Of a stretch of DNA of 43,933 nucleotides, positions 39,957-43,428 are shown piece after piece. Both the position numbers and the translations under genes were made by a program. The stretch's first letter is position 1, and each line of letters starts with the position of its first letter. Below the pieces are notes generated by a model. That model did not search any database and was not told the DNA's origin. It saw only the letters and a program-made list of their open reading frames with translations. This DNA is from Photorhabdus noenieputensis (GTDB lineage: Bacteria; Pseudomonadota; Gammaproteobacteria; Enterobacterales; Enterobacteriaceae), in contig NZ_RCWC01000043.1 of assembly GCF_018448935.1 (NCBI RefSeq), positions 1 to 43,933 on the forward strand, written 5' to 3'.

Positions 39957-41231
<1,275 letters not shown>

Positions 41232-41268
41232 GCTTACTGTGGGTATGTACCACGGTAAGAAAGAAACC

Positions 41269-41293
41269 AGCCGGAAGCGATTCCGGCTTTTTG
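41269..41293 (+). terminator. murA terminator
   Basis: AGCCGGAA (41269-41276), loop GCGA and TTCCGGCT (41281-41288) form a perfect 8 bp stem followed by a T-run. Confidence 0.93.
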
Positions 41294-41489
41294 CTGTTTC
41301 AGAGAGAAAACAGAATAAAATAGCTAAAATATAGCCTATGTATATATTTATCATTAATATTATATTTTTCTGTATTATTCCTTTGTTTATCTTCTTATTT
41401 ATTTTATATTTTCGCGATTTTAATCTATATATTTAATATATAAATTCAACCCTGTAAAATATTTATTTTAAGTATAAAAATAACAAGGC

Positions 41490-41521
41490 TAGGAAGATCA
41501 CGAGGATCTTTCCGGCTTTTT
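41490..41521. terminator. Hairpin at the inner end of repeat copy A
   Basis: AAGAT and ATCTT, extended imperfectly by GGCTAGG / TCCGGC, surround a CACGAGG loop; TTTTT follows on the plus strand. On the minus strand it follows the 41521-42045 stop and probably ends that transcript. The corresponding stem in copy B is perfect. Confidence 0.55.
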
Positions 41522-42045
41522 CATGAGAATATGTTTTCTATATCAACTAGTTTTTCATCCTTAGTCATTCCGCATGGATACAACCCTTCTTTATATATCT
41601 CAAAGATCTTTTCCAAGATTGATTCTTTTTGTTCACCTAATATATACCTTTGAATAGATAACATGTTTAGTTGATAATAGACTTCATCTAAAATTTCAAA
41701 ATAAAAATCATCGTATTCTGTATTTGTTTTTTTTATTTTAGATTTTCTATAAATTAATGTCTTTTCCTCTTGTAAGTCACTGTATTCTTCGTCAATATCT
41801 TCTAAGTAATCTTCAGCTTCAGAATAGTTATCTTTTAAAGAAAATTCACCAACGCTATTTTCTATAAGATCTTGCCAGACTAAATATCCATCTGGTAAAT
41901 CTTGACTTAATGATAATCTAAGGGATTTGTCTTTATCTTCCAATAGGATAATATCAGAAGGTGCTTTTACTCCCCCTGATAAAAGATTATCTGAAAATAA
42001 AAAATTCATTGGTTCAGTTATAAACCTCTTATTTTCGCTTTTCAT
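41521..42045 (-). CDS. Presumptive orphan immunity protein of an Rhs toxin module
   Basis: A 174-residue, acidic protein (Asp/Glu-rich middle: YSEAEDYLEDIDEEYSDLQE) without signal peptide or membrane segment. I do not recognise a named immunity family. Its role is inferred from position: the ATG lies two bases after the end of a degenerate toxin tip (42048-42324), with GAGG inside the last toxin codons as its Shine-Dalgarno. The whole is flanked by the repeat that also follows the next immunity gene. AT content is much higher than in the adjacent murA, a sign of acquired DNA. The reading frame is intact although its toxin is broken. Confidence 0.7.
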   Translation of the reverse strand: MKSENKRFITEPMNFLFSDNLLSGGVKAPSDIILLEDKDKSLRLSLSQDLPDGYLVWQDLIENSVGEFSLKDNYSEAEDYLEDIDEEYSDLQEEKTLIYRKSKIKKTNTEYDDFYFEILDEVYYQLNMLSIQRYILGEQKESILEKIFEIYKEGLYPCGMTKDEKLVDIENIFS

Positions 42046-42047
42046 TA

Positions 42048-42324
42048 TTATACCTCTAAAATTTTATTCCACATTTCTAAAGCACGTTGATTGCCTATTT
42101 GGGCTTTTCCTTTCTAGCTATCTTTAGCTCTTATTGGTGTTCCATTCATCATTACCTTCCTTAGCTAAATTTTGTATATCAGCAACCTATTTCGATATCT
42201 TATTAACAGACTGGTTTAAGTCTATTTTGTCTGGTACATTTTTAATAGCCCTAAAGTAACCATTGTGATTACCTTGATGCCTTGCCATTGCACTAACCAG
42301 TCGGTATTGGCTTGGCGTGGGCAT
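42048..42324 (-). pseudogene. Degenerate orphan Rhs-type toxin C-terminal tip
   Basis: On the minus strand a frame opens at the ATG at 42324 (MPTPSQYRLVSAMARHQGNH...) and continues with GYFRAIKNVPDKID up to a TAG at 42187-42189. The same frame resumes (VADIQNLAKEGNDEW) and then shifts. The last part, GTPIRAKDS, a second TAG (42114-42116) and KGKAQIGNQRALEMWNKILE, is in another frame and ends with TAA at 42048-42050. The pieces join into one plausible ~90-residue toxin tip with two nonsense changes and one frameshift. There is no Rhs core upstream. The family is not recognised. Confidence 0.65.
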
Positions 42325-42346
42325 TCACCACGGTAAGAAAGAAGCC

Positions 42347-42370
42347 AGCCGGAAGTGATTCCGGCTTTTT
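42347..42370 (+). terminator. Duplicate of the murA terminator
   Basis: AGCCGGAA (42347-42354), loop GTGA and TTCCGGCT (42359-42366) plus T-run, the same stem as 41269-41293 with one loop change. No plus-strand gene precedes it here. Confidence 0.85.
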
Positions 42371-42566
42371 ACTGTTTCAGAGAGAAAACAGAGTAAAATA
42401 GCTAAAATATAGCATATGTGTATATTTACCATTGATATTATATTTTTCTGTATTATTCCTTTTTTTATCTTCTTATTTATTTTATATTTTATCGATTTTA
42501 AGATATATATTTAATATATTAATACCAACCCTGTAAGATATTTATTTTAAACATAAAGATAACAAA

Positions 42567-42600
42567 GCCGGAAAGATTATGGGGAGCTTTCCGGCTTTTT
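42567..42600. terminator. Hairpin at the inner end of repeat copy B
   Basis: GCCGGAAAG and CTTTCCGGC form a perfect 9 bp stem. TTTTT follows on the plus strand and TTTGTTATCTTT on the minus strand. It directly follows the stop of the Imm50-like gene, so it probably ends the minus-strand toxin-immunity transcript. Confidence 0.8.
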
Positions 42601-42602
42601 GT

Positions 42603-42986
42603 TTATTTACTGATATATACAGAAGGTCCCGTAAACTGTATATGAATACATTCCAGATTTAATCGAAAATTAGAGCCATGAATTATTACTTTATTATGAC
42701 CATTTTCTTTTTTTATCTCGATTTTTGCTAACATGCTAACGGCAATGCCTTCAATATTCATAGATGTAACACCACCACAGTTTATACCACACCTACATTT
42801 GTTATATCCTTTTACCCATTTTACAGGTGGGTTATCTGGTAATTTTCCGATTAAATCAAAACTTATTATTACTGTTGGTCCTTCACGATCTATTTTTATA
42901 TCAAAGAGATCTATGTCTGATATTTCCACAGGTTTAGAAAATACTTTATTAAACAATATAGTGCCATCAAGATCATTCCAAAACAT
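42603..42986 (-). CDS. Imm50-like immunity protein
   Basis: A 127-residue cytoplasmic protein. FWNDLDGTILF, then DIDLFDIKIDREGPTVIISF, a Pro-rich PDNPPVKW and a Gly/Cys-rich middle resemble Imm50-type polymorphic-toxin immunity proteins; this family call is from memory. The ATG lies ten bases after the stop of the Rhs toxin tip. Its Shine-Dalgarno (AGGAGA) overlaps that stop, the standard coupled toxin-immunity layout. It should neutralise the toxin encoded at 42997-43428. Unusual for a small immunity protein are four cysteines, two in CRCGINC. Confidence 0.75.
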   Translation of the reverse strand: MFWNDLDGTILFNKVFSKPVEISDIDLFDIKIDREGPTVIISFDLIGKLPDNPPVKWVKGYNKCRCGINCGGVTSMNIEGIAVSMLAKIEIKKENGHNKVIIHGSNFRLNLECIHIQFTGPSVYISK

Positions 42987-42996
42987 ATGATGTCTC

Positions 42997-43428
42997 CTAA
43001 AAACTATAGTGATCTAATGTTCCTGGGACATTCCCAGTTCGAATGTTATCAATAGGTCTTACATTTAAATGAGGTCCTTGATTACCTACACCATCGGGGT
43101 AATAGTGCCTAGCAGAATGATCTTGGATAATCACCTTATCTCCATCAGCTTTTGTGAATTGATACTCCTTTGTCCATATTGGCTTACCATTATTGCCAAT
43201 TATTGTTTCATTATTTGAATTAGTCATACGAACATGCCTATATTGACTTTCAAAACCAGTTTTTGGGTCAAATATTTTATCAGGCTGTTGATTCATCGGT
43301 ATTCTCGCATCTCTTTTCGCTGCTCTAAAAGCCGCATTCTTTGAACCAAATTTAGTAGGACATTTTGCCAGCCCGAATGGGGCGATCCAACCCGTCGGAT
43401 TATGCACGTAACTGTAAGGATTTACTCC
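42997..43428 (-). pseudogene. 3' fragment of an rhs gene with nuclease-like toxin tip, cut by IS66
   Basis: Read on the minus strand, the last 143 codons of an Rhs protein. The core end GVNPYSYVHNPTGWIAPFGL is followed by a ~115-residue variable tip. The tip carries FGSKNAAFRAAKRDARIP, then KEYQF, IQDHSARHYY, GPHLNVRP and a GTLDHYSF end. The spaced Glu and three His could be an HNH/Endo VII-type nuclease site (EHHH-like), a tentative reading. The fragment begins exactly where the IS66-type left end stops (43429), so the core, PAAR/N-terminus and export are lost from this side. Rhs cores normally have Asp where Ala precedes PFGL. Confidence 0.8.

Follow-up and report, generated by a model that had tools for sequence, protein, structure and literature searches.

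The repeat of about 290 bp that occurs twice in the window, the 43,933-nucleotide stretch of Photorhabdus noenieputensis DNA analysed here, is a common 3′ end of toxin-immunity cassettes in Photorhabdus; its two copies in the window look like scars of integrative elements, fuller relatives of which are found elsewhere in the genus. The best explanation, with a probability of roughly 0.7, is that an element encoding a primase and a XerC-like integrase would insert in an rhs gene and displace the old toxin tip, with decay and recombination in the repeat (hereafter the flank) following the insertion. The window itself looks like a remnant, or fossil, of such an element and not a member of the group, the link being made through the flank and through relics of a DUF7706 gene; no integrase or primase lies between murA and the contig end, where the ORFs are immunity genes, a toxin tip and insertion-sequence-like DNA.

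Repeat pair and murA junction

The two copies are direct repeats in the same orientation with a start-to-start spacing of 1078 (Table 1), and each stands directly behind an immunity-type ORF on the minus strand. Their ungapped identity is 90% over 222 nt and then 84% over the next 75 nt; the gapped identity in the own-genome search is 88% over 291 nt (E 6.5e-103), far above chance, so that the same-orientation repeat of about 290 bp that had been noted behind both immunity genes is borne out. The pair is not isolated, as four further long copies are present in the same assembly on contigs C60 (two), C46 and C70, bringing the total to six. Terminator-like hairpins are present in both copies. 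Unrelated tips and immunity genes follow in series, with the Tox-HNH-EHHH/Imm50 pair placed ahead of a decayed nuclease tip, which we take to belong to the AHH family, and its own immunity gene; the 174-aa ORF of this orphan immunity gene has no match in Pfam or NCBIfam. An rhs core fragment is absent ahead of the window orphan, which directly follows the flank, and is present in loci L123 and L149. The rhs gene is cut at the contig end by DNA that is presumably IS66-like.

Table 1. Features of the window around the two flank copies
Feature	Position	Strand	Evidence
murA, usual last codons replaced, closed by TAG from the joined sequence	39972..41231	+	Pfam EPSP_synthase E 2.3e-135; 11 other genomes compared
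Flank copy 1, cassette 3′ end, behind orphan immunity gene	41231..41521	+	repeat comparison, own-genome search
DUF7706 relic, copy 1, last 8 codons and stop (AYCGYVPR, stop)	41232..41258	+	translation; PF24806
Terminator-like hairpin, copy 1, murA side	41269..41288	+	sequence
Terminator-like hairpin, copy 1, immunity side	41492..41512	+	sequence
Orphan immunity gene, 174 aa; relatives behind AHH-type nuclease tips	41521..42045	-	ORF; close copies in G003, G004, G005, G009
Decayed 3′ part of AHH-type nuclease tip	42046..42308	-	DNA similarity to stretch behind other flank copies
DUF7706 relic, copy 2, last 12 codons and stop (QSVLAWRGHSPR, stop)	42298..42336	+	translation
Flank copy 2, behind Imm50 gene	42309..42600	+	repeat comparison, own-genome search
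Terminator-like hairpin, copy 2	42347..42366	+	sequence
Immunity gene, Imm50	42603..42986	-	PF15594 E 3.6e-27
Rhs toxin tip, Tox-HNH-EHHH, in frame with Rhs-type VHNPTGWIAPFGL end motif	42997..43407	-	PF15657 E 3.9e-25; translation
Insertion-sequence-like DNA cutting rhs gene at contig end	43440..43933	+	sequence read

Copy 1 adjoins murA because a private junction at 41219-41240 replaces the usual last codons of murA with the DUF7706 end; the murA end reads ..AAATCAACG and is followed by TAG..CTTACTG, an arrangement present only in the genome of the window (G000), G005 and G009 among 12 Photorhabdus genomes. In G004 murA is followed, after about 200 bp, by a DUF7706 end, and none is present in the 400 nt behind murA in the other eight. 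The repeat is not a murA feature; a role of the flank as the murA terminator was considered and rejected, since in G007, a complete genome, over 1 Mb separates murA from the flanks, and the usual 3′ end of murA differs. Among named sequences the murA of Photorhabdus heterorhabditis is nearest, at 98%.

Distribution and placement of the flank

Searches of the window genome and 11 other genomes of Photorhabdus find long flank copies in eight of the 12, while the remaining four give only matches shorter than 70 bp. The resulting set comprises 35 pieces, some of them truncated at contig ends, with a 36th match of 48 bp left out; one piece is without upstream sequence, leaving 34 that can be scored for placement. 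Of these 34, 23 begin no more than 45 nt past the stop codon of an immunity-strand ORF that is 50 aa or longer, against 7.4% for random positions in the same loci; for the 11 misses the nearest immunity-strand stop is 94-487 nt away, and several of them stem from a truncated copy or a broken gene. The genes ahead of the flanks, sorted by eye, fall into at least eight unrelated immunity types. A family-wide search of 295 genomes from 154 genera (E<=1e-10) finds the flank in two genomes, both Photorhabdus, and gives no match in the third Photorhabdus genome of that sample (G006); with the window DNA as query, the flank is absent from the plasmid and phage records, which give a single weak nuclease match. 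The repeat is multi-copy, yet it stands behind immunity genes and is confined to Photorhabdus among the 295 genomes, which is not the scatter over unrelated sites of a generic dispersed element.

A small hydrophobic ORF within the flank (41338-41436, plus strand, 32 codons), visible in many copies, was evaluated as a gene and rejected as not coding, with 51 non-synonymous changes where 52.6 would be expected (P 0.31 for its own frame); among the five other frames of the flank one minus-strand frame is borderline (0.0495), which is read as chance among six tests. In G007 one flank copy is split into two pieces by an insertion sequence (L119:9158-10544) with a 353-aa transposase, presumably IS630-like. 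A 439-aa ORF, which we take to be restriction-enzyme-like, lies convergently and directly against a flank copy on contig C60 of the window genome (L035:2356-3675), and similar ORFs are found in the G007 and G011 arrays.

Flank anatomy and the DUF7706 gene

From the immunity gene outward the flank consists of the immunity stop, a terminator, an AT-rich stretch, a second terminator and the end of a convergent DUF7706 gene. On the plus strand its murA-side end reads ..LQSALAYHGYSPR and a stop codon, which is the C-terminus of a 65-aa DUF7706 protein; the intact gene matches PF24806 (E 1.3e-24 and 1.7e-25). Six of the 35 pieces (in L123, L128, L133, L136, L148 and L149) are long flanks that adjoin an intact DUF7706 gene, after which L128, L133 and L148 have a SymE-family gene and a repressor; L133 and L148 add a divergent CHC2/Toprim primase, and L148 an integrase. 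The unit in L148 is complete and has a flank of the window type; the two ends of its contig share an overlap of 38 bp that begins at the rhs site, and it is therefore either a circle or a tandem repeat. DUF7706 is nearly confined to Photorhabdus, being above the cut-off in 11 of the 12 Photorhabdus genomes and in three of 394 genomes of the order, one of which is the window genome itself.

The integrase-primase unit and its right edge

The unit of Photorhabdus spans about 7-8 kb and contains an Rhs tip, an immunity gene, DUF7706, SymE, a repressor, a CHC2 primase and a XerC-like integrase. The rhs 3′ end with its tip and the immunity gene lead to the flank; DUF7706, SymE and the repressor point back towards it, and the primase and the integrase run forward into a right end of about 0.9 kb. 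In the complete genome G011 a T6SS cluster, recognized by eye, ends with vgrG, a chaperone-type gene, an rhs gene (1480 aa) and its immunity gene, after which come DUF7706-SymE-repressor, the primase and the integrase; there follow another rhs 3′ fragment, which ends in the same tip, and a repeat of the whole set, giving identical tandem units. Similar tandem units with a spacing of about 7-8 kb are present in G002 and G008. The integrase matches the NCBIfam XerC model PRK01287 above its cut-off (E 5.9e-156), and when aligned to XerD (1a0p) it keeps R, K, H-R, H and Y, which we take to be the catalytic residues of a tyrosine recombinase. Distant relatives of the integrase (45-46%) stand in tandem with a spacing of about 7-9 kb near 1305000, 4220000 and 4351000 of G007:C1.

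A constant edge, reading ..GTATGATGGCGTCGGGATAGTCCCTAAGA or ..GGGATACGCCAGA, lies about 0.92 kb behind the integrase and is followed by rhs coding sequence. Among 29 integrase loci three have too little sequence; the fixed edge is seen in 23 of the 26 that can be scored, the three without it being L230, L231 (which has Ns) and L238, and the left end is inferred from the tandem junctions. The 23 edges continue at DPxGL in 16 cases (one of them DPLNL), at LWDGD in four and at DHQGT in one, with two continuations unrecognised (L234, L237); copies of the unit within one genome are often near-identical tandems, and these counts are not independent. Three of the 23 joins were read directly from the edge sequence, the automatic pick having fallen at a later site. 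Joins at DPxGL and DHQGT restore the Asp codon that is native to rhs genes there; at LWDGD the codon of the intact rhs gene is Tyr, and Asp is supplied by the join. The join sites vary (first or second DPxGL, DHQGT, LWDGD), and there is therefore no single attachment sequence. To the left of G011 loci with unrecognised or DPxGL edges, inspection by eye finds Rhs-like ORFs (L235, L237) and a VENN-type ORF (L238).

The core fragments of four genomes (G003, G004, G005 and G011) all begin at one rhs position, to within 5 nt. Two of these fragments, L123:2498 and L131:9468 (G004 and G005), have the same rhs start as the element and stand behind a different sequence. This sequence (L123:2380-2498, L131:9350-9468), which we liken to an intron, joins the rhs core where the integrase element also joins; a search of Rfam at the gathering threshold gives no match in the window, L123, L131, L127, L120 or L133. 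The intron-like junction ahead of these two fragments falls outside what the element explains.

Displaced modules and probable recombination in the flanks

The orphan module of the window recurs in G003, G004, G005 and G009 at 91-99% identity, each time behind a flank, and the head immunity gene ahead of it differs in every case, being Imm50 in the window and of 122, 111, 235 and 148 aa types in the other four. The claim that the second module is a displaced older tip and immunity pair is thus upheld by five genomes with one orphan and five head immunity types, and the suggested comparison of strains does find different toxin-immunity cassettes ahead of the same orphan; stepwise cassette replacement is supported by these sequences. 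Between G005 and G009 the AHH remnant is 100% and the orphan immunity gene 99.5% identical, whereas the flank ahead of the shared remnant is 87-90% identical and the preceding 57 nt, the end of the head immunity gene, 42%.

Maximum-chi-square tests on the ten pairs of these five genomes (300 permutations, p uncorrected for the ten tests) place breakpoints at 42348 (G005/G009) and 42305 (G000/G004), each with p 0.003 and at the distal edge of the flank, and at 42278 (G000/G005) and 42236 (G003/G004), each with p 0.02; four of ten pairs thus have a breakpoint at p<=0.02 within 42236-42348. Two further pairs break elsewhere, G000/G003 at 41270 (p 0.007) and G004/G009 at 41645 (p 0.04), and the remaining four have no breakpoint at p<=0.05. 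The flank had been predicted to act as a 3′ homology arm: recombination at the flank is consistent with the breakpoints at its edge, but the flank is not a mere arm, as it constitutes the junction between the immunity gene and DUF7706 in an integrase-primase element, whose insertion in rhs can account for the displacement.

Mosaicism was tested on 27 of the 35 flank pieces. Copies with the same immunity type in different genomes are more alike in the first 40 nt (0.842 vs 0.746, p about 0.003), and the excess is weak at 40-100 nt (p 0.013, 0.017); no excess is seen at 20-60 nt or past 100 nt of flank. At short range fewer site pairs are incompatible (0.255 vs 0.328, p 0.0025 for 20 bp), with p 0.14, 0.054 and 0.032 for 40, 60 and 100 bp. 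The sequence beyond the flank, classed by pattern, is an AHH-type remnant in 19 of the 27 copies, DUF7706 in five and other in three; outside the five close ones the AHH-type remnants are mostly 67-73% identical to that of the window. Copies grouped by this sequence show no excess identity inside the flank, and at or past its far edge the same grouping gives an excess with p 0.096 at 260-300 and 0.003 at 280-320. The flank is mosaic, and homologous recombination within flanks is therefore likely as a secondary process.

Relatives outside Photorhabdus and circular records

Relatives of the primase at E 1e-60 or better are present in 13 of 394 genomes of the order and in 10 of 115 genera, the window genome included. 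The gene order of the unit is kept across genera, also beside hemagglutinin-type genes: L262 and L264 have the same order by eye, with edges ..CAGGATCGTCCCTATGA and ..CGGGATCGTTCCTATGA that both continue as CCCGATAGGGCTGG, and in L263 and in L272 and L273 of the window genome the primase and repressor lie behind tips of CdiA/hemagglutinin type (by eye), L263 also having the integrase. Among 5426 complete E. coli genomes, 59 contain the primase DNA, at one to six places each, all chromosomal. All six XerC units of strains EC77 (four) and LI60C3 (two) end in ..CCCGATGA joined to YCCGATAGGGCT, at the Asp codon of DPIGL; the intact rhs gene of LI60C3 reads ..GTAACGGA joined to TCCGATAGGGCTGGCGGGG at codon 1411, so that its right half agrees with the units and its left half differs from theirs, a pattern that resembles attL/attR.

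The primase is also present in 26 plasmid records. The surroundings of 11 were examined, and all 11 keep the order of an opposite HTH gene, the primase and a tyrosine recombinase; a polymorphic-toxin gene or domain is annotated or evident beside the primase in at least six (H2, H4, H5, H6, H8, H12), and the neighbours in the other five, both Leptospira records among them, are large or unnamed ORFs. The circular record NZ_CP055112.1 (8758 bp) contains XerC, an Rhs tip region cut by an ISEc1 transposase, a putative immunity gene, SymE, the repressor and the primase; it aligns collinearly, from end to end and at 98.2%, with one of the chromosomal units of EC77, is without about 70 bp of the primase gene present in the EC77 units, and has its edge joined to its own DPIGL. 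A second circular record, NZ_CP072857.1 (11289 bp), features two nuclease-tip/immunity modules together with a complete primase, a partial one, a single XerC and a RelE-type toxin-antitoxin pair. The two records, each composed almost entirely of units of this kind, may represent genuine circles, or they may have arisen when tandem units were assembled into a loop. The primase has no match at E<=1e-30 among 50,697 phage records, which does not support an interpretation of the elements as phage satellites. In another family a contig with primase and integrase (L270, G610:C247) has ends that overlap by 91 bp and is possibly a circle or a tandem unit. In L281 and L286 the place that SymE holds in elements of Enterobacterales, with the toxin or immunity gene on one side and the repressor on the other, is taken by genes of VbhA-family antitoxins.

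Proposed mechanism and alternatives

Tip and immunity cassettes would travel in a presumably mobile integrative element that carries a primase and a XerC-like integrase. The integrase, as the presumed agent, would join the circular element to an rhs gene already in place, for the most part at the DPxGL Asp codon but also at DHQGT and LWDGD. A fresh tip with its immunity gene would thereby be attached to the rhs core, and the former tip would come to lie one element further downstream. Repeated insertions would produce the tandem arrays, which we infer to grow in this direction. Later deletions would remove the part from DUF7706 to the integrase, leaving as a scar the flank and 8-12 DUF7706 codons, and homologous recombination in the flanks may shuffle the cassettes further.

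Several features would also be expected if RecA exchanged tips through the conserved core and the 290 bp flank, with the primase and the integrase as passengers, namely the restriction of excess identity among same-immunity copies to the first 40 nt and weakly to 40-100 nt, the lower incompatibility of near sites (strongest at 20 bp) and, in the closest pairs, breakpoints at the edge of the flank. Recombination as the only process is nonetheless considered unlikely, as the same right edge precedes different rhs positions, no homology to rhs is evident in the left arm of the junction, and the element gene order persists across genera and at hemagglutinin-type genes. Circles could alternatively form between core fragments by homologous recombination without a dedicated recombinase, as proposed by Jackson et al. 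(2009; PMC2935791), and core fragments do precede several displaced tips; however, the fragments of four genomes start no more than 5 nt apart and not at varying lengths, and 16 of the 23 right edges lead into DPxGL and include hardly any core, which makes this origin improbable.

It is highly improbable that the repeat is a generic dispersed element (MITE or REP) or a small gene unrelated to the cassettes: there are six long copies in the genome and a 32-codon hydrophobic ORF in many of them, but the copies are placed behind immunity-strand stops at several times the control rate (23 of 34 vs 7.4%), and the ORF is without coding constraint. A local tandem duplication of one toxin-immunity module with later divergence would account for two direct repeats 1078 bp apart and has a parallel in the identical tandem units of G011, yet the two immunity genes of the window share no family match and relatives have different heads on the same orphan, so that very little probability is given to it. 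Insertion of an integrase-primase element followed by decay and flank recombination is the explanation preferred here.

Relation to known systems

Integrative elements that replace the 3′ end of a target gene, and phage satellites with an integrase and a primase, are known kinds of mobile DNA. The present units resemble them in having a tyrosine recombinase, a primase, a repressor and circular records of plasmid size; they differ in that the target is a toxin gene and the cargo a replacement C-terminus with its immunity gene, and, in comparison to phage satellites, in a primase without a match in phage records. A description of such elements was not found among the matches listed in the open literature, nor was a paper there on DUF7706 or on Rhs, CHC2 and integrase together, most subscription papers being outside this scope.

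The papers drawn on here already describe tip displacement, orphan modules and, for Vibrio, immunity arrays that are built stepwise and share a short conserved region downstream. For Rhs, Jackson et al. (2009; PMC2935791) describe arrays of displaced tips behind rhs, in which a shared tip is displaced by different new tips, and predict a circular intermediate. The present loci are alike in their displaced-tip arrays and in one tip standing behind different new tips; in the passages of that paper the arrays have core fragments of varying length and are attributed to homologous recombination, whereas the window orphan is without a core fragment and has 3′ flank repeats, and its relatives have an integrase-primase unit with a fixed right end. 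We consider it reasonably probable that widespread integrative elements carry a replacement toxin C-terminus with its immunity gene and insert via a XerC-like recombinase into polymorphic toxin genes, in rhs mostly at the DPxGL Asp codon and in a related branch at CdiA-type genes; these would correspond to the circle predicted by Jackson et al. and would extend from Enterobacterales to Burkholderiales, Pseudomonas and perhaps Leptospira.

Poole et al. (2011; PMC3150448) describe orphan cdiA-CT/cdiI and rhs-CT/rhsI modules, which share with the present loci displaced toxin-immunity pairs and the boundary motif DPxGL or VENN; a mobile vehicle is absent from the passages of that paper, in contrast to the present units. 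The T6SS immunity arrays of Vibrio cholerae (Kirchberger et al. 2017; PMC5361080) similarly place a new effector-immunity pair in front and the old immunity gene behind, and have a short conserved stretch after the effectors within the arrays; their authors propose homology-facilitated illegitimate recombination and state that they have no integrase evidence, whereas relatives of the window carry an integrase. XerC/D genes are noted beside some polyimmunity loci by Zhang et al. (2012; PMC3482391), a likeness to the present recombinase genes beside immunity gene arrays; unlike the present units, those loci are given in the available passages without an element, ends, attachment site or primase, and the main text as available has no mention of integrase, primase or SymE.

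The swapping of toxic ends in Rhs and CDI systems has so far been explained by homologous recombination and hypothetical circles; an element that encodes an integrase, has a fixed end and is matched by circular records would provide a testable mechanism of tip swapping. Such an element would account for the joint movement of toxin and immunity genes, the downstream pile-up of old immunity genes and the leftover repeats, and the 290 bp flank would be a searchable fossil marker of these events.
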